Assembly: GCA_020718845.1 (NCBI GenBank)
Contig: DYRG01000001.1
Span: 186,001 to 250,000, forward strand
Source: Thiomargarita sp.
GTDB taxonomy: Bacteria; Pseudomonadota; Gammaproteobacteria; Beggiatoales; Beggiatoaceae
Direction of reading: 5' to 3'
DNA: 64,000 nucleotides
Part shown: positions 43,223-57,968 of the stretch, piece by piece
How the letters are laid out: every line of letters begins with the position of its first letter
How positions within the stretch are numbered: position 1 is the stretch's first letter
Translations under genes and position numbers: made by a program
The notes under the pieces: model-generated
Told to the model about the DNA's origin: nothing
The model's database searches: none
Seen by the model: only the letters and a program-made list of their open reading frames with translations

Positions 43223-46200
43223 ATGTTGAATAAAACCTGTTTTTTATTATTGCGTGTTTTATGGCGGGCGGTATTTTTATCCCTGTTAGCGGGTTGTTTG
43301 TTTTTGATTTTAACTTATACGGCTTTTTGGCAATTAGCGCAGCAACGTGAAAACCTTACGCATTGGTTATCTAATCTTTTACAACAACCCGTTTCTTTAC
43401 AAACTTTAAAACCAATTTGGGAAACCAATAATCCTCAAATTCGTTTAGAGAATTTACAAATCGGATCGCATCACCTTCAAAGTGCAACCGTTGAAATAGA
43501 TTTATTTGCAACTATTCTCACCCAAAAACCTATTTTAAAATACATTAGTTTAAATGGTTTAAAAGTTTCCATTGAAACATCTACAAATACCCCGCCTCTT
43601 TTAGATAAAGAAATCATTAAACTCGCGCAAAACATCGATCCTTTCATTTCTCAAACCCATCTTTATTTAGAAAATATTGAGTTTTATAATGCACACTTTA
43701 AAATCAATATTAAACGCGCTGAATGGTTAAAAAATGACGACAATTATATCCTAACTGGTGAATTAGAAAGGTTTTTTTCAAATATCTATATTCCCAGAAC
43801 TGTTACAAATGGGCAATTGAATTTTAAAGCAACTTTAAATCCTTATTCTTTAGAAGCCACGTTGCATTTATTTTTACAACAAGCTGATTTACAAATTGCT
43901 AATCAAATTTTTCAAGTTCCTCACATAAAAAGTGATTGGAAAGCTCAGTGGCTAAAAACGCTAAATGTAACGGGTCAAATTAATATTCCAAGCATTGATC
44001 TTGAAATGCTATCTGCATTGAATTTACCTATCAAATCCAGCGGATTTTTAAAAGATATTGAAATCACGATGGAAAATCACTCTTTAACTGCAAATTTTCA
44101 AGGAAATGATTTAGTATTTCATATCAAGGATGTTTATGATGATCCGATTAAAGTTTCTCACTTAAAAACTCATCTAATTTGGGATGAAAATCCTCACTTT
44201 AAAATAAATGTTTCAAATGAAGATATTGAAAATTTACAAATCAAAGGCTCATTAGAACATTGGCAAGCAGCATTAAAAAATGCAGATTTATCAAAAGTTT
44301 ATTATTACGTTCCTAAAATGGCAGTCGGGGCAAAAAAATGGTTAACTCACGGATTACCTTCAGGAAAAATTAAATCCGCACAAGCAGAATGGAAAAATCA
44401 TCAATTAACTGCTTCAGCACACGTTGAGGATGGAACTATAGATTATTCAATGGGTTGGCAATCTATTACCAATGCTGATGCGGAAGTTTTATTTGAAAAT
44501 GACACTTTAACGATTCAAGCAAAAAAGGGAGAAATTGCCAATAATAAAATTTTGCCGACAACTCAAGTAGTTATCGAACATTTAACTTCCAACAAACCGA
44601 TTTTAACCGTCGATGGGCAAGCAACGGGTGCATCGGCGGATGGGTTGAAATTTATTCATGAAAGCCCTTTAGAGGAAGTAATTGATTTACAAGGATTAAA
44701 TTTGCAAGGTCAAATGGATTTGGATTTGAAATTGGTGATTCCTTTGGCAGGAAATGCTGAAATTATCACAGAAGGACAAATTAACTTAAAAAACAATCAG
44801 TTATCTAATGATTTGTTGGCAAAAAAAGATTTATCCTTAACAAATTTAAATGGAATAATTTATTTTGATGACGACAGTTTGCATACAGAAGAAATTAAAG
44901 CAAATTTATTAGATTATCCAGTTGAATTAGAAATAGAAAGAACCGAAGAAAATGGCTTACAAGTTGATTTGAATGGGAACGCTGATCGAGTCTTTTTGGA
45001 ACGTTTATTTCAACGTTTGAATCCAAAAATAATCCCATTTCTTTGGCATTTGAGTGGACAAACTAATTGGAACGCACATATTAATTATCCGATTGAAGAC
45101 ATTGCAACATTAAAAATAACAACTGATTTGCAAGGTGCGGCGATTTCTTTACCTGATCCTTTAGGAAAAATAGCTGATCAAGAGCGTTTTTTACGTTATC
45201 AAATTCCTTTAGAAGAAGATAATGAAGGTATTTTTCAGTATGCTAATCTTTTCAATGGGATATTTAATAGCGATTTTAGAAAAGGAACGTTTCAATGGGG
45301 AGAAAAATTAGCTAAATTAGAAAATAGATCGGGTTGGACAATTAAAGGAAATTTTCCAAATATTGATATAAACAACTGGTTATTTTTATTTGAAAATACT
45401 TCGCACACTTCTTCAAATAAATTGCCCGTAATATATGTTGATATTTCTATGCCGTCCTTAAAATTTGCCGATCAAGATTGGCAATCTTTTTCATTAAAAG
45501 GGGATTTAAAAAATCTTTCTATTAACTCAAATAAAATTAAAGGAAAAATTAATTATAACAATGAGTTATTAAAAGTAGATTTAGATTATTTGCATATTAA
45601 TACGCCTACTCATGATATTCAAATTCCTCAAAATATTCCAGACTTAGAAAATAGAGAAACAGTTTATCAAAATATACGTTTTGATCCACGACAATTACCG
45701 AGCATTCAGTTCAAGTGTCGAGAATTAAAACTAAATGATTTGAATTTAGGAGATTGGCGATTTCAAGCAACACCATTTGAAGATGGTTTAAACATTGATC
45801 GATTACAAGCACATACGGAACATTTAGATGTTTTAGCGAGTGGAAGTTGGCAAACAAATCCCCATTGGACATCATTACAAATGGAATTAAGTAGCGATGA
45901 TTTTGGTAAAGGATTAAAGGAGTTAGGTTATGGTAGCGGTGCAATCAGTGAAGGAAAAGTGAAAGCAACTTTTCAAGGAAATTTTCCAGGTGATCCATTA
46001 CAATTTGATCGAGGATATTTGGAAGGAAATTTAAGTTTAAAAATTTCTGATGGGCGATTAGAAGATGTTAACCCTGGCGTTGGAAGAGTATTTGGATTAT
46101 TTGATTTGCATTCTGTGCCGAAACGCTTATTTTTAGATTTTGGAGATGTGTTAGGAAAAGGTTTGAAATTTGAAAACATTGAAGGTGAATTTTCTTTTGC

Positions 46201-46495
46201 AGATGGATTTGCAGAAATTAAAGGATTAGTCCTAGAAAGTGCAATGAGTAAAGTTATTTTTCAAGGAAAAACTGATTTGAGAAGACATTTGTACGATCAA
46301 ACCATGATTGTAATGCCAAATGTAATGGATACGTTATCAATTGCGTCGTTAAGTTTGGGAGGAATTGGGATTGGATTAAAGGCAGCAACTTTCTTATTAC
46401 AATCAATGCTAAAAGATGAATTAAATCAAATCATTCAATTTCGTTATCGAATCACAGAAAGCTGGGAAAAACCTAACATCGAAATGGTCGAATAA
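43223..46495 (+). CDS. yhdP: YhdP family (AsmA-like) protein, phospholipid transport
   Basis: 1090 residues, somewhat shorter than E. coli YhdP (about 1266). An N-terminal membrane anchor (AVFLSLLAGCLFLILTYTAFW) precedes a long beta-rich periplasmic region of AsmA/DUF3971 type. The hallmark C-terminal part is clear: DPLQFDRGYLEGNLSLKISD, VNPGVGRVFGLFDLHSVPKRL and FQGKTDLRRHLYDQTM. YhdP, TamB and YdbH are bridge-like proteins that carry phospholipid to the outer membrane. It begins 30 bp after glnD, probably co-transcribed. The hairpin right after it has no T-run on this strand. Confidence 0.9.
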   Translation: MLNKTCFLLLRVLWRAVFLSLLAGCLFLILTYTAFWQLAQQRENLTHWLSNLLQQPVSLQTLKPIWETNNPQIRLENLQIGSHHLQSATVEIDLFATILTQKPILKYISLNGLKVSIETSTNTPPLLDKEIIKLAQNIDPFISQTHLYLENIEFYNAHFKINIKRAEWLKNDDNYILTGELERFFSNIYIPRTVTNGQLNFKATLNPYSLEATLHLFLQQADLQIANQIFQVPHIKSDWKAQWLKTLNVTGQINIPSIDLEMLSALNLPIKSSGFLKDIEITMENHSLTANFQGNDLVFHIKDVYDDPIKVSHLKTHLIWDENPHFKINVSNEDIENLQIKGSLEHWQAALKNADLSKVYYYVPKMAVGAKKWLTHGLPSGKIKSAQAEWKNHQLTASAHVEDGTIDYSMGWQSITNADAEVLFENDTLTIQAKKGEIANNKILPTTQVVIEHLTSNKPILTVDGQATGASADGLKFIHESPLEEVIDLQGLNLQGQMDLDLKLVIPLAGNAEIITEGQINLKNNQLSNDLLAKKDLSLTNLNGIIYFDDDSLHTEEIKANLLDYPVELEIERTEENGLQVDLNGNADRVFLERLFQRLNPKIIPFLWHLSGQTNWNAHINYPIEDIATLKITTDLQGAAISLPDPLGKIADQERFLRYQIPLEEDNEGIFQYANLFNGIFNSDFRKGTFQWGEKLAKLENRSGWTIKGNFPNIDINNWLFLFENTSHTSSNKLPVIYVDISMPSLKFADQDWQSFSLKGDLKNLSINSNKIKGKINYNNELLKVDLDYLHINTPTHDIQIPQNIPDLENRETVYQNIRFDPRQLPSIQFKCRELKLNDLNLGDWRFQATPFEDGLNIDRLQAHTEHLDVLASGSWQTNPHWTSLQMELSSDDFGKGLKELGYGSGAISEGKVKATFQGNFPGDPLQFDRGYLEGNLSLKISDGRLEDVNPGVGRVFGLFDLHSVPKRLFLDFGDVLGKGLKFENIEGEFSFADGFAEIKGLVLESAMSKVIFQGKTDLRRHLYDQTMIVMPNVMDTLSIASLSLGGIGIGLKAATFLLQSMLKDELNQIIQFRYRITESWEKPNIEMVE

Positions 46496-46577
46496 AAAAG
46501 GCACGACGGTTGTCGTGCCAAACCACCAAAGGAGGATGGAGGAGTCTGTGATTGCCAAAACCATCTCAGCAACCAAT
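46494..46577 (-). ncRNA. Candidate small RNA with anti-Shine-Dalgarno loop
   Basis: Predicted transcript of about 84 nt, with a promoter upstream and a rho-independent terminator at its end. Terminator: GGCACGAC/GTCGTGCC (46500-46519, 4-nt loop) followed by six U. Two further hairpins are visible in the transcript: UGGUUGC (46575-46569) with GCAAUCA (46555-46549), and CCAUC (46539-46535) with GGUGG (46527-46523). The loop of the second is CUCCUUU, and CCUCCUU (46535-46529) equals the anti-SD core of 16S rRNA. A second C/U-rich stretch ACUCCUCC (46545-46538) is unpaired. I recognise no known RNA family. It may also be processed from the 3' end of the histidine-kinase operon. Confidence 0.65.
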
Positions 46578-46584
46578 GAAGCGT

Positions 46585-46613
46585 ATTCTACAGAAAGTTA
46601 GTATATTAGTCAA
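46585..46613 (-). promoter_or_regulatory. Sigma-70 promoter of the candidate small RNA
   Basis: Minus strand: -35 TTGACT (46613-46608), 17-bp spacer, -10 TAGAAT (46590-46585); each box has five of six consensus bases. Start of transcription expected near A at 46577. No open reading frame on this strand uses it. Confidence 0.7.
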
Positions 46614-46634
46614 TACTAATATTTTCAATATTAG
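46598..46634. promoter_or_regulatory. Two inverted repeats overlapping the small-RNA promoter
   Basis: TTAGTAT-N8-ATACTAA (46598-46619) spans the -35 box, and CTAATATT-N3-AATATTAG (46616-46634) lies directly upstream and shares four bases with it. Both are perfect. Their placement is that of repressor or activator operators. The AT-rich composition makes chance palindromes more likely than usual. From 46635 to 46733 I see nothing further. Confidence 0.5.
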
Positions 46635-46733: not shown

Positions 46734-47702
46734 TTAAAAATAAGGGAGATAAAAAATAAAAGTACTTCCTTTGTTTAATTCACTATTCACAGAAATATGA
46801 CCACCGAGCATTTTTGCAAAGGCTTTACTAATCGCTAAACCTAAGCCAGTTCCTCCAAATTTACGGGTAGTTGAACTATCAGCTTGCATAAAAGGTTGAA
46901 ATAGAGAATCAATTTGTTGTTTTGTCATTCCAATGCCTTGATCAATGATATTAAATACAATCCAGTTCTTATCATCTTTGATTTCATGTTTTGCAACGAA
47001 AGTAATGAGACCGTTCTCAGTAAATTTTGCCGCATTTCCTAACAAATTAAAAAGAATTTGCCTCACTTTAGTTAAATCAGAATGAACATTACCCAGTTGC
47101 TCTGTAATTTCTAAGATTAATTGGTTATTTTTTTGACGAACAAGGGGTTGAATGGTTGAAATAATCTCGTGGATAAGGCAATTAATATCAAAAGTTTCCA
47201 AATAAACTGTCATTCTACCCGCTTCAACTTTTGAAATATCCAAAATATCATCAATTAATCCCAACAAATGATGCGCAGCAGAGAGAATTTTATCCAAATC
47301 ATTTACCAAATCTAAATAATTATCTTCAGTCAGTTCCTCAACAAGCAACTCACTATATCCTATGATTGCATTTAAAGGGGTGCGTAATTCGTGGCTCATA
47401 TTAGCTAGAAAGGCACTTTTTGCTCGGTTCGCCATTTCTGCTGCAATGCGTGCTTGCTCGGCAACTTCTTTAGATTCGAATAACTCAGCGTTCTTTTCAG
47501 CTAATTCATGGGTGCGTTCTTGAACTTTGCTCTCAAGATTCTCTTGGATTTCTAATAATTGGGCTTCTATTAAATCTGCGTGTTCAGTAACCGCTTCCAA
47601 GGAAATTTGTAATTGAAGATTTTCTTTCTCCAATATTTGGATTCGGTGGCGTAATTGCACACTTTCATTATTTTGTTCCATTGGCAAAATATTTAAGCAC
47701 AT
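46734..47702 (-). CDS. Cytoplasmic histidine kinase with coiled-coil N-terminus
   Basis: 322 residues, no transmembrane helix and no recognised sensor domain. Residues 10-95 form a long coiled coil ([40 protein letters not shown]). HisKA has [20 protein letters not shown]; the ATPase has [30 protein letters not shown] and [17 protein letters not shown]. There is no receiver domain, so the partner must be encoded elsewhere. It is 8 bp after the STAS gene and ends the PP2C operon, suggesting its input comes from that switch. Confidence 0.88.
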
Positions 47703-47710
47703 TAAAATAC

Positions 47711-48073
47711 TTAGTATTCAAATAGTTGGATTTGTAAGGAAGGCAATAAACGCTGCAAATTAATACATAATTTTTCTTGCCATGCAATAGACTTTTTTGC
47801 TTGCATTGTAATAGTTAGCGTTAATTTTTTTATATCGCTCACATACATAACAAATTTGGTAAGCATATTAATGCCAGAACTATTCATAAATTTTAAAGAA
47901 CGCACATCTATTGTCAAACCATTTGGTTCATGGGTTTCAGCGGCAGATTTTAATAGTTGTAAAATGGGTTCATAAGCGGGTGCACCATTGAGCAACAACG
48001 ACCCCTCACAAATCACTATTGCGGTTTCTGGATCATAACAAATGCGGTATTTGTTATCTTTTAATTCTATCAT
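47711..48073 (-). CDS. STAS-like antagonist, slr1659-type regulator
   Basis: 120 residues. [20 protein letters not shown] and [20 protein letters not shown] (with the Ser-Ser phosphorylatable site of STAS antagonists), then [18 protein letters not shown], resemble the cyanobacterial Slr1659 family. In partner switching such proteins are phosphorylated by a GHKL kinase and dephosphorylated by a PP2C enzyme; both are encoded immediately upstream. Spacing to the GHKL gene is 10 bp. The downstream effector is unknown; the next gene's kinase is a candidate. Confidence 0.78.
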
Positions 48074-48083
48074 GGCAGTTCCT

Positions 48084-48686
48084 CTAATTATTGTTTTCTA
48101 GTGTGACCATTGTTGTAACAGTAACAAGTGGCACGCCGTCGATGCTTTCAAACTTCCAACCTAGTTTCGCATTATAATCGCAAATCATGCTTAACAAACC
48201 TATTCCAGAACGATGAGCATTTTCTTCCCGCGCACTTTCTCGCATTGCTTCCATATAAAGCGCTTGTGGATCATTTTCTAATACTTTTTTAATGAAAATT
48301 TCAAATGATTCCGCTTGTTGCGCAGTAATGCTGTGCTTAATATAAAACACCAGTTTGTCATTATACAACGATAAGAAAATTCGTGCAGCAGTGGGATAAA
48401 TAATGGGTGCTTGAAATTTCATAGCATTTTCAAGGAGTTCATTTGCAACATATTTCACACTGTTTTGAAGATTTTCTAATAAAATATCATTTAATATATC
48501 ACCATTTTCTTCTTGCCGACTTACATAGAAAATTTTGAAATATTCTGAAATAAAGTCCGCAGACAACCCATTGTTTTCCCAGCGTTTTTTTAATGGCAAT
48601 CGACTCGGTGAAAATCGAATTGACAAATACTCTTCGCATTCAGGTTGTTTTTCATCGTTGAAATCACCGAAGATTTCTGTGCTCAC
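48084..48686 (-). CDS. GHKL ATPase-like regulator, slr1658-type
   Basis: 200 residues from GTG at 48686, chosen because AGGAG lies 6 nt upstream; the TTG six bases earlier abuts that site. SIRFSPSRLPLKKRWENNGLSADFISEYF opens the protein. YVANELLENAMKF is an N-box and HRSGIGLLSMICDYNAKLGW a G-box-like element, so the fold is a HATPase as in anti-sigma kinases. It matches the Slr1658-type family found in cyanobacteria and in some gammaproteobacteria. Predicted to phosphorylate or sequester the STAS protein encoded 10 bp downstream. Confidence 0.78.
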   Translation of the reverse strand: MSTEIFGDFNDEKQPECEEYLSIRFSPSRLPLKKRWENNGLSADFISEYFKIFYVSRQEENGDILNDILLENLQNSVKYVANELLENAMKFQAPIIYPTAARIFLSLYNDKLVFYIKHSITAQQAESFEIFIKKVLENDPQALYMEAMRESAREENAHRSGIGLLSMICDYNAKLGWKFESIDGVPLVTVTTMVTLENNN

Positions 48687-48799
48687 GTTCAACTCCTCAT
48701 TATGTTTTTTAAATCATTTTCATATTTATGGGCAGTGTTTTCTCACGATTCCCATAAATAGTTCAAATAATGTTTCTCAACTTTAAACCAACTATTTAA

Positions 48800-50518
48800 T
48801 TACATACTGGTTCTTTTCACAACAAGCAATGTAATATCATCTAAAACAATTTGATCACCAATATATTGACGAACATCTTGAATAATGGCTTTTTGAACCT
48901 CTTGTGCATTTGAAGTTGTCCAATGTTTTGCAACCACTTCACATAAACGTTCAACGCCATACATTTCTTCAAGATTGTTTTGAGCTTCAGTTAAACCATC
49001 CGTGTAAAGAACAATCCCATCACCGATTTCAAGTTCAATTTCACATTGTCCTAAAAATTGGCTAATGTTTGCTTTTAATCCTACCATGAATCCTAAATTA
49101 ATCGTATTCACTCTTTCTATGCTGCCGTTCTTTCTCACAACTAACACTTCTTCATGCTGACCTGTTAATTGTAATTTACCATTTTCGTAATCCAATAATG
49201 TTAAGGTTAAATTCTTATCAGAATTCATCCGTTGCATATTTTCAAATACCGCCCGATTTAAAACATCTAAAAAGATTTCAGGATCAGTGACACCGTTTTC
49301 TAATAAAGTTCTCACCGCCATTTGAACCATAAGCATAACTACGCCACTTTCTAATCCGTGACCTGTTACATCTCCTATGCCGATTTTAGTGCGTCCATCA
49401 TAATGTAAAACGTCATAATAATCGCCGCCGATTTCATTTGCAGGTTCCATAAAACCAGCAATATCTAATCCTTTAATAGCTTGCAGTTCTTTTTCTTTAG
49501 GTAAAACCATTTGTTGTAATTTGCGGGTAATATCGAGTTCAGCACCCATTCGGAGGTTTTCAATTTGTAATCCTTCATTAAGGCGACTAATCTCTTTATT
49601 TGCGGCGGCTAATTCAGCGGTGCGCAAAATAACTCGTTGTTCTAATTGGTTATTTAAGGATTGCAAGGTTTGTTGTTGTTCGTTAATTTTGAAAGTCATA
49701 TTATTAAAACCATGACTAATTTTTGCAAACTCACCTTCAAATCCATCTAATCGATGCGTGTAATCTCCTTCAGAAATCGCTTGCATACCCTGTTCAAGTT
49801 GAGCCATTGGATTTGTTACATTACGTTTTACAATAACTAAAACGGCAAAGAAAATACTCATAAATCCTAAGAAATGAATCGTTGCACCTTTCTTAAAAGT
49901 TTCCCAAGCGCGTGCATTCACGGTCGAGGCAGGAATTTTAATACTTAACAAACCGCGTAAATCTCCAACTTTGTAATTCCATGCGGTATCATAAGTTTCT
50001 CGAATATGTTTAGGTGCTTCTTCACGATTGCCGTGACAACTTAAACAATATTGCTCTGTCCAAATTGGGCGAGCATACAAATAATATTCTTCCCCATTTT
50101 TCTTTAGATTATTAAAAGGTTTGAACAAGACTTGTTCTTTAGGATTTTGACGGAAATATTCCATTGCAGCTAATTCAGTTTCATCGGCAGTGTGTTCAGG
50201 GTTGCGAGGAATATCAGAAACGTTTTCAAAGCTAAAACCAGAATTATCCCAATTAGGGTATTCTTGAGAAATCTTTCCAACTGCAAATGCGGGCAAAAAA
50301 TTTAAATTAATTTCATCCATCTCAATATTATTTTTTAAAATAACTTGTTGGTGATAACGGCGATATGCCATTAATAATGAGCGAACTTTTTCTGCTTGAT
50401 CTTGTAAGTCGTGGATTGCATTGTTTTTGGCATCTTTGTAACTGCTATATTCGACCGCGGTAAAAACCACTAATAACACCATTCCAATCGCCCCTAACAA
50501 TTTAGTTTGTAGACGCAT
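48800..50518 (-). CDS. Membrane PP2C (SpoIIE-type) phosphatase with CxxCH periplasmic sensor
   Basis: 572 residues from the ATG at 50518 (AGGGAG upstream). Transmembrane helix 1 (LLGAIGMVLLVVFTAVEYSS), then a periplasmic DUF3365/Tll0287-type domain (about 30-215) carrying CLSCH, a c-type heme attachment motif; helix 2 (IHFLGFMSIFFAVLVIV); HAMP; coiled coil; and a PP2C/SpoIIE domain. Metal ligands are in EIGGDYYDVLHYDG, IGDVTGHGLESGVV, GIVLYTDGLTEAQN and LDDITLLVV. It heads the operon PP2C-GHKL-STAS-kinase. Expected role: dephosphorylate the STAS protein when the heme or its ligand state changes. Confidence 0.88.
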   Translation of the reverse strand: MRLQTKLLGAIGMVLLVVFTAVEYSSYKDAKNNAIHDLQDQAEKVRSLLMAYRRYHQQVILKNNIEMDEINLNFLPAFAVGKISQEYPNWDNSGFSFENVSDIPRNPEHTADETELAAMEYFRQNPKEQVLFKPFNNLKKNGEEYYLYARPIWTEQYCLSCHGNREEAPKHIRETYDTAWNYKVGDLRGLLSIKIPASTVNARAWETFKKGATIHFLGFMSIFFAVLVIVKRNVTNPMAQLEQGMQAISEGDYTHRLDGFEGEFAKISHGFNNMTFKINEQQQTLQSLNNQLEQRVILRTAELAAANKEISRLNEGLQIENLRMGAELDITRKLQQMVLPKEKELQAIKGLDIAGFMEPANEIGGDYYDVLHYDGRTKIGIGDVTGHGLESGVVMLMVQMAVRTLLENGVTDPEIFLDVLNRAVFENMQRMNSDKNLTLTLLDYENGKLQLTGQHEEVLVVRKNGSIERVNTINLGFMVGLKANISQFLGQCEIELEIGDGIVLYTDGLTEAQNNLEEMYGVERLCEVVAKHWTTSNAQEVQKAIIQDVRQYIGDQIVLDDITLLVVKRTSM

Positions 50519-50692
50519 GACAGTTCTCCCTTGATTCTTAAATTGAAATACCCATCGTTGTTTCAATAACATATCGGGTACGTTTGGGTAATTATAAACC
50601 TAAAATAGAAGCAGTCACTTAAATAATTTTTGATTTCACGCATTAAGATATTTAATATGGTAACTTTGAAATCAAAAAACGAGGTAAATGCT

Positions 50693-56042: not shown

Positions 56043-57299
56043 ATGATGGCGCGGTTGTTTTACGGGTTGCTCGGATATTTACTAATCCCAATTATTATTG
56101 GGCGGTTGTTGTTTAGAGGTTTCAAAGCCCGCGATTATTGGCGCAGATGGTCAGAACGGTTCGGTTTTTTCAAACCACTTTCTTCTCACAAACGCATTTG
56201 GATTCACGCAGTGTCTTTTGGTGAAATTCAAGCGTCAGTTCCTCTCATTAAAGCATTACAACTCAAATATCCTTCCTTTGATTTTTTAATCACCACCATG
56301 ACACCGACGGGTGCGCAACGTTCTAAAGAACTTTTTGGAGAAACTATTACGCATTTGTATTTGCCTTATGATTTGTGGCACGCAGTGTTTTTATTTCTCA
56401 ATAAAACCAAACCAACGATTGGAATTATTATCGAAACTGAATTATGGTTTAATTTATTCCACGCTTGCAAAAAACGCCACATTCCTCTTTTTTTAATCAA
56501 TGCGCGTTTGTCTGAAAAATCCTTTCAAAAATATCAAAAATTCATTCCCAATTTAATTAAACAAACCTTGCAATGTTTAACTCACATCGCCGCGCAAACT
56601 ATTGATGATAAAAGAAGATTAGAAAATCTTGGCGCGAAAAATATTACGATTACGGGAAATTTGAAATTTGACGTTGAAATCGATAAGTATACATTTGAAA
56701 AAGCGGAAGAATTAAAAAGAAATTTTGAGAATCGAAAAATATGGATTGCCGCAAGCACCCATGAAGGCGAAGAAACTATTCTTTTAAATGTTCATCGTCA
56801 GATTAAACAAAAAATACCTAATGTTTTGTTAATTTTAGTGCCGCGTCATCCCGAACGTTTTAATCAAATATTTCAGTTGTGCGAACAAAGAGAATTTAAA
56901 ACAAGTCGTCGCAGTCTTTCTCAAAAAATATCAATAAAAACAGATATTTATTTAGGCGACACAATGGGCGAATTGTTAATGTTATATGCGGTGGCAGATG
57001 TGGCATTTGTGGGAGGAAGTTTGATTTGTCGCGGCGGACATAATTTGATCGAACCAGCGGCGGTTGGAAAACCTATTTTAACGGGTCAATTTATGTTCAA
57101 TTTTGCAGATATTACCAAACGTTTATTAGAAATCAATGCCGCAGAACAAATTTTTGATGAGCAACAATTGATTGAAAAAGTATTATTTTTATTAGAAAAT
57201 CCAACGCAATGCAAAATAATGGGAGAGAAAGGAAAAGCGTTTGTTGAACAAAATCGAGGGGCTTTAGAAAGGGTACTTGATTTAATTGAAATAAGGTAA
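56043..57299 (+). CDS. waaA: 3-deoxy-D-manno-octulosonic acid transferase WaaA (KdtA)
   Basis: 418 residues from ATG at 56043 (a TTG one codon earlier and an ATG one codon later are alternatives). WaaA adds Kdo to lipid IVA. An N-terminal membrane anchor (FYGLLGYLLIPIIIGRLLF) precedes the catalytic-base region IHAVSFGEIQASVPLI, TTMTPTGAQRSKELFG, IIIETELWFNLF, ITGNLKFDVE, WIAASTHEGEE, LVPRHPERF and the C-terminal FVGGSLICRGGHNLIEPA. It starts 3 bp after lspA. Confidence 0.95.
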   Translation: MMARLFYGLLGYLLIPIIIGRLLFRGFKARDYWRRWSERFGFFKPLSSHKRIWIHAVSFGEIQASVPLIKALQLKYPSFDFLITTMTPTGAQRSKELFGETITHLYLPYDLWHAVFLFLNKTKPTIGIIIETELWFNLFHACKKRHIPLFLINARLSEKSFQKYQKFIPNLIKQTLQCLTHIAAQTIDDKRRLENLGAKNITITGNLKFDVEIDKYTFEKAEELKRNFENRKIWIAASTHEGEETILLNVHRQIKQKIPNVLLILVPRHPERFNQIFQLCEQREFKTSRRSLSQKISIKTDIYLGDTMGELLMLYAVADVAFVGGSLICRGGHNLIEPAAVGKPILTGQFMFNFADITKRLLEINAAEQIFDEQQLIEKVLFLLENPTQCKIMGEKGKAFVEQNRGALERVLDLIEIR

Positions 57300-57326
57300 G
57301 AAATGCGACGATTTCTTACCCTTTTT
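57295..57326 (+). terminator. Terminator of lspA-waaA
   Basis: Perfect 10-bp inverted repeat GGTAAGAAAT (57295-57304) and ATTTCTTACC (57311-57320), 6-nt loop, then CTTTTT. The left arm includes the waaA stop codon. The csp gene on the other strand ends at 57337 and may share it. Confidence 0.88.
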
Positions 57327-57336
57327 AAAAACGTTT

Positions 57337-57549
57337 TTAGATTGGCGTTACATTCACAGCGGATGGACCTTTTGCGCTATTTTCAATTGAAAATTCCACT
57401 TGTTGATTTTCTGCTAAGGTTTTGAAACCATTGCCTTGAATCGCACTAAAATGGACAAATACATCTTTGCTGCCATCTGCGGGGGTAATAAAACCAAAAC
57501 CTTTGCTTTCATTAAACCACTTAACTGAACCTTTCATCATACTAGACAT
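57337..57549 (-). CDS. Cold-shock protein, CspA family (copy 1)
   Basis: 70 residues from the ATG at 57549. One cold-shock domain: [20 protein letters not shown] (RNP1 KGFGFI) and DVFVHFSAI (RNP2). Single-stranded nucleic-acid chaperone. Very similar to the csp gene 113 bp upstream, so a likely tandem duplication. The start could also be the ATG at 57540. Confidence 0.93.
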
Positions 57550-57661
57550 AATAAAACTCAACTCAAAAAAAATAAAAAAACAAACTTAGCACTTGCTGTG
57601 ATGCGATAAGATAAGAAATTACTCTGTAAGTGTACATTAAAATCCTATCTAAAACAAAAAC

Positions 57662-57874
57662 TTAAAGCCCAACTACATTAGCAGCAGCGGGACCTTTTTG
57701 ACCTTGTTCGATGGTAAATTCTACCCGTTGCCCTTCATTCAAGGTTTTGAAGCTAGTGCTTTGAATCGCACTAAAATGAACGAATACATCTTTGCTGCCA
57801 TCCGCCGGTGAAATAAAGCCAAAGCCTTTTTCAGCATTAAAGAACTTAACCGTTCCTGTCATTTTGTTAGACAT
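57662..57874 (-). CDS. Cold-shock protein, CspA family (copy 2)
   Basis: 70 residues from the ATG at 57874; an in-frame upstream extension is not cold-shock-like. [20 protein letters not shown] and DVFVHFSAI carry RNP1 and RNP2. C-terminus [17 protein letters not shown] is standard. The gap between the two csp genes (57550-57661) is AT-rich and could hold a cold-responsive leader, but I see no specific structure. Confidence 0.93.
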
Positions 57875-57968
57875 AAAAAAATCTACCTTACTTAAAAAAT
57901 AAAAACAATAAATCAATTAATGATTTTCATCAGTCTATCATTGTTTAAATTGTAAGTCCAGAAAAAAT

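Follow-up and report, generated by a model that had tools for sequence, protein, structure and literature searches.

The window analysed here, a 64,000-nucleotide stretch of a Thiomargarita sp. genome, carries on its minus strand a predicted small RNA gene that is flanked by a histidine kinase gene of the same strand and by a convergent yhdP gene (Table 1). Sequence inspection places the gene for an RNA of about 84 nt, from its promoter (TTGACT-17-TAGAAT) to its terminator, within 46494-46613. A second promoter-like match, TTGAAA-17-TATACT, overlaps the first at 46628-46600, but comparison between loci identifies TTGACT-17-TAGAAT, the promoter of the original prediction, as the conserved one. 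Upstream, a minus-strand operon at 46734-50572 encodes a SpoIIE-phosphatase/HAMP/Tll0287-like protein, a DUF6272-like and a SiaC-like protein (both weak matches) and the histidine kinase, and resembles a signalling module of the SiaABC type that includes a kinase. Two tandem cspA thermoregulator RNAs at 57290-57963 on the minus strand exceed the Rfam threshold. On the opposite strand, read-through of yhdP over 46494-46613 would produce an antisense of the small RNA containing AAAGGAGGATGGAGGAG, and a sponge-like effect at the window locus is possible because the hairpin after yhdP has no plus-strand T run. Two TTG-start open reading frames of 51 and 42 aa overlap the small RNA, though a peptide product was judged unlikely since the core is kept as nucleotides while the spacer and the terminator loop vary in length.

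Table 1. Positions in the window of the small RNA, its parts and its neighbours
Feature	Position	Strand	Basis
Predicted small RNA gene, about 84 nt	46494..46577	-	Start inferred from -10 box, end from T run
-35 box TTGACT	46608..46613	-	Motif reading and conservation across loci
-10 box TAGAAT, 17-nt spacer after -35 box	46585..46590	-	
ATTGACTAATAT, conserved element over -35 box, candidate operator with CTAATAT heptamer	46603..46614	-	
Stem-loop 1 (SL1), 5' hairpin, 12 bp	46549..46575	-	Fold
Linker ACUCCUCC, first anti-Shine-Dalgarno (anti-SD) stretch (= SSR1 of NmsR/NgncR)	46538..46545	-	Fold and alignment A2
Stem-loop 2 (SL2), anti-SD hairpin	46523..46542	-	Fold
SL2 loop UCCUCCUU, includes CCUCCUU	46529-46536	-	Fold
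22-nt core CTCCTCCATCCTCCTTTGGTGG	46523..46544	-	Exact match in at least 116 loci
Stem-loop 3, intrinsic terminator with U tail	46494..46519	-	Stem and T run
Upstream neighbour, histidine kinase (HisKA + HATPase_c), outside the RNA	46734..47702	-	Pfam
Convergent neighbour, YhdP family protein	43223..46495	+	Pfam; stop codon overlaps last 2 nt of U tail

The folding energy of the 84-nt RNA is -31 kcal/mol, where dinucleotide shuffles average -19.6 (sd 3.1), which gives z -3.7, and the 42 nt preceding the core reach a mean fold z of -2.87 over 146 loci, against -0.14 for the control (mononucleotide shuffles). The SL2 stem of the window copy is weak, with 5 bp and a U-U mismatch, and is without variation in alignment A2, an invariance that arises partly because the loci were retrieved using the 22-nt core. 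The terminator stem, GGCACGAC/GTCGTGCC at 46519-46500, is followed by six T, and in alignment A2 all eight of its pairs (8/8) have compensatory changes on both sides, with 98.7% of cells paired. The linker ACUCCUCC had been described as unpaired, and in the minimum-energy fold it is partly so, though four of its C residues take part in the weak SL2 stem; the centroid fold limits pairing around it to CCA/UGG.

Consensus scans of the region are insufficient to set the locus apart, counting 12 promoters where 15.1 are expected and 2 terminators where 2.2 are expected, neither above chance; it is by conservation, in the form of BLAST E-values, exact 22-mer loci and covariance-model matches, that the locus stands beyond chance. 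BLAST matches in relatives reach E-values down to 3e-20 and include contigs named Candidatus Albibeggiatoa and Thiotrichaceae. The exact 22-mer CUCCUCCAYCCUCCUUUGGUGG was found in the species-genome collection at no fewer than 116 loci, those among the matches listed including Thiothrix, Leucothrix, Thiomargarita, Thiocapsa, Thioalkalivibrio, Sedimenticola, Thiodiazotropha and Arenicella as well as three betaproteobacterial loci (L055, L148, L075). The perfect identity of this core is in part a matter of ascertainment, since the loci were retrieved with that 22-mer, while terminator covariation, the TTGAC[ATC] promoter, the 5' hairpin and the covariance-model matches are evidence independent of core retrieval. 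A covariance model built only from gammaproteobacterial copies (R1) scores 72.5 bits (E 1.5e-24) on the window at 46494-46550, a copy within its own training set; at an E-value limit of 1e-3 it has matches in 176 of the 369 genomes of the class, and at a limit of 1e-4 in 56 of the 398 genomes of the phylum, where the strongest all lie within the same class. These E-values are rough because the calibration was short, and the weakest matches include chance terminators. Comparison with relatives thus confirms a real small RNA gene, conserved far beyond chance, and bears out the prediction of a separate small RNA whose loop resembles the anti-SD: its promoter, terminator and CUCCUU loop are present here and all kept in relatives, the loop being partly ascertained by the core.

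Copy number varies between genomes. The genome of the window holds a second strong copy on contig C70, directly followed by a decayed tandem copy of 22.8 bits (L002, C70:10094-10148, minus strand). Tandem arrays of 2-5 copies with periods of 90-200 nt occur in the relatives L013, L016, L017, L020 and L021, three of these arrays lying near a malate dehydrogenase gene. Near 1479-1515 of L014 (minus strand), the 5' hairpin has a second CUCCUCCUUUGG loop, giving two anti-SD hairpins per RNA, a form that may be compared with the cuckoo RNAs.

The promoter is conserved along with the RNA. At 93 of 145 loci TTGAC[ATC] precedes the core by 45-95 nt, whereas shifted control windows have it in 0-10 of about 138, and a -10-like box was read 16-17 nt past TTGACT in L010, L011, L012, L014, L018, L019 and L027. 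This conservation bears on the suggestion, made in the original prediction, that the RNA could be derived from the 3' end of the kinase operon, or, in a related reading, that it is simply the terminator of that operon. The RNA does share the strand of the kinase, whose stop codon lies 157 nt upstream of it, and by reading there is no other terminator between the two; its promoter is nonetheless its own, and relatives keep promoter and RNA where the kinase is absent, which makes such an origin highly improbable. The terminator of the small RNA may end kinase transcripts as a side effect.

A further element appears to be superimposed on the promoter. ATTGACTAATAT occurs once in the genome of the window and was found at the small RNA promoter in five of the six relatives searched, the remaining matches lying away from the small RNA; ATATTAG is additionally present at 46616-46622 of the window. 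The heptamer ATATTAG/CTAATAT is found in 62 of 145 promoters, against 0-2 of about 138 control windows, adjoining the -10 box in Chromatiales-type promoters and sitting on the -35 box in promoters of the window type, a placement that recurs in another family (L243). The same AATATTAGAGAAT promoter box is seen in the betaproteobacterial L239. The enrichment of the heptamer points to a candidate operator or an unusual -10 context. IscR was considered as the regulator, as the -35 element is like an IscR half site, but is not claimed, the organism's own iscR promoter, TTGACTGATTTAGTGGGATA, differing beyond TTGACT.

In the Rfam scan the window copy remained below the gathering score of every family. 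RF02278, named 'Betaproteobacteria toxic sRNA' and related to Bordetella S17 and to Burkholderia bdhR1/ncS03, ncS05, ncS27 and ncS62, matched it over the full model length at 33.5 bits (E 3e-5), short of the 50 bits that would place it in the family as drawn, and NmsRb (RF02877) did so, again at full model length, at 25.9 bits (E 0.035), short of 52 bits. In the other direction, the gamma-only model R1 retrieves, with E-values from 1e-10 to 7e-18, 11 loci scoring above the RF02278 gathering threshold, which the three betaproteobacterial loci with the exact 22-mer exceed as well. RF02278 members share the core CUCCUCCA-CUCCU-UGGUGG, an anti-SD hairpin followed by a terminator, the promoter box in the case of L239, and the presence of several copies in some genomes; the window copy differs in its shorter SL2 stem and its gammaproteobacterial lineage. 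The likeness to NmsR/NgncR_162-163 of Neisseria (RF02877) is one of architecture: NgncR RNAs have three stem-loops and pair their targets through SSR1 and SL2 (PMC9973317), and the window copy has the same three stem-loops, the last a terminator, with one anti-SD seed in the linker between SL1 and SL2 and another in the SL2 loop (UCUCCUUU). Tandem sibling genes, typical of NmsR/NgncR, are found in relatives of the window genome but not at the window copy, which is single, with its strong sibling on another contig, and the Neisseria genes adjoin lrp.

The chromosomal place of the gene in the two lineages agrees with this kinship. Just upstream of rplM-rpsI and in the same direction, at a median distance of 171 nt, lie 59 of 146 loci, often beside coq7, osmC or a 2Fe-2S ferredoxin-like gene (Pfam names), and 31 of 146 lie between tgt and queA. 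RF02278 members above threshold show the order osmC-sRNA-rplM-rpsI in L245-L248 and L252 and coq7-osmC-sRNA in L249-L251, L253 and L254, and Bordetella S17 adjoins coq7 (PMC11722255). The osmC/coq7-sRNA-rplM neighbourhood is thus common to both lineages, while the window copy has moved out of it to a place between kinase and yhdP. Reciprocal model matches and chromosomal place thus make the two lineages homologous, although the window copy itself has moved and scores below the Rfam threshold. The window RNA is a homologue of RF02278/S17/NmsR and represents a new branch, in gammaproteobacteria, of anti-SD small RNAs of a kind already known; the 'new regulator' announced by the original prediction is accordingly not new in kind. 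The lineage is an ancient one, known mainly from betaproteobacteria and extending through sulfur-oxidising and other gammaproteobacteria.

The ancestral place beside rplM-rpsI also raises the possibility of a cis-acting leader or attenuator that could control read-through into that operon, for which the common orientation and short distance at the 59 loci may be cited. By reading, however, rplM apparently has a promoter-like sequence of its own between the small RNA terminator and the start codon, and its Shine-Dalgarno (SD) sequence is weak and without extended complement to the small RNA. The window and tgt-queA loci have no gene in the same direction following the RNA at that place, and everywhere the RNA retains its own promoter and terminator. 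Because rplM seemingly possesses its own promoter and many loci lack a gene after the RNA, action in cis is disfavoured and very improbable.

Other small RNAs with C- and U-rich loops are more distant. The original prediction had compared the RNA with sX13 of Xanthomonas, in which C-rich loops bind G-rich sequences close to start codons. This likeness is not supported: sX13, which is found only in Xanthomonadaceae and close to polA, presents CCCC/CCCCC loops (PMC3771888), whereas the window copy has neither the C4/C5 loops nor the polA locus, and sX13 is absent from the Rfam matches of the window up to E 10. The alpha-r14/cuckoo RNAs (NfeR1) similarly present anti-SD motifs in hairpin loops and pair at ribosome-binding sites (PMC10746234), but have three hairpins, each with CCUCCUCCC; where cuckoo RNAs carry this motif in each of 2-4 hairpin loops, the window copy has the single loop UCCUCCUU without repeat. 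Model R1 also matches PrrF (RF00444) and SorX (RF02784) at 30-33 bits through a CUCC stretch and the terminator. Neither was accepted as a member, as by reading they share little beyond the CU motif and the terminator; PrrF has other domains and is not among the Rfam matches of the window to E 10.

Taken with its relatives, the window RNA very likely is transcribed on its own, folds into three stem-loops and represses mRNAs in trans through anti-SD seeds, as the gammaproteobacterial branch of the lineage that includes RF02278 and with the architecture of NmsR/NgncR. Stem-loop 1 would cap the 5' end, the linker ACUCCUCC and the SL2 loop UCCUCCUU would form two anti-SD seeds, and stem-loop 3 would act as the terminator and provide the U tail. 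U tails are commonly bound by Hfq, and Hfq is encoded in the window genome. By pairing with purine-rich ribosome-binding sites, the seeds would keep translation of several mRNAs from starting and so lower the expression of a group of genes for metabolism, transport or energy. To the anatomy, conservation, promoter and homology established in this analysis the relatives add the mode of action, and it is from them that we infer transcription, pairing, repression and Hfq use of the window RNA. NmsR and S17 both act by pairing at ribosome-binding sites (PMC5362039, PMC11722255): NmsR represses TCA-cycle genes via two anti-SD motifs (PMC5362039), and the Hfq-bound S17 represses BP2158, with compensatory proof (PMC11722255). 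Repression of a set of mRNAs by masking of their SD sequences is the best reading because both seeds are placed as in these relatives and the genome encodes Hfq, and the original proposal that the RNA pairs with many ribosome-binding sites is most likely correct by this homology.

A more general effect on the ribosome has also to be considered: the RNA might mainly be a decoy that imitates the 16S tail and competes globally for SD sequences, or that is toxic when abundant. Its loop is identical to the anti-SD core, RF02278 owes its name to growth inhibition in E. coli (PMC5688073), and expression of NmsRB was not viable there (PMC5362039); expression of S17S, on the other hand, barely affected E. 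coli growth (PMC11722255), and the targets of the known relatives form defined sets, on which second-site mutations restore repression. Such a global action is quite improbable. In the genome, 12 genes have a perfect 9-nt seed site AAAGGAGGA ahead of their ATG, while the reversed pattern gives 2, and the genes concerned include a hemerythrin, with an 11-nt complement AAAGGAGGATG, a COX1-family oxidase or reductase and a TPP enzyme (Pfam). As a target finder the 9-nt seed with ATG was rejected, since strong SD sequences look alike and the 12 sites are explicable by ordinary SD sequences alone.

RF02278 has been described as exclusive to betaproteobacteria (PMC7011215), and one Aeromonas annotation has been reported (PMC8780938); a search of openly accessible literature found no gammaproteobacterial description of this RNA. 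What is new is the breadth, the shared place and the promoter element, the mechanism being already known in relatives. More speculatively, and less likely than not, an ancient beta- and gammaproteobacterial anti-SD regulator beside rplM-rpsI might have a dedicated ATATTAG/CTAATAT operator through which one regulator couples growth state to repression of conserved targets, Beggiatoa-like bacteria having freed the RNA and multiplied it into tandem arrays. The analysis ties RF02278 to a large set of gammaproteobacterial RNAs that are missed by the Rfam threshold, that share its place on the chromosome and among which a promoter element recurs. One conserved regulator thereby becomes testable across many genera, with a covariance model usable for annotation and a candidate operator that points to a regulator to seek.
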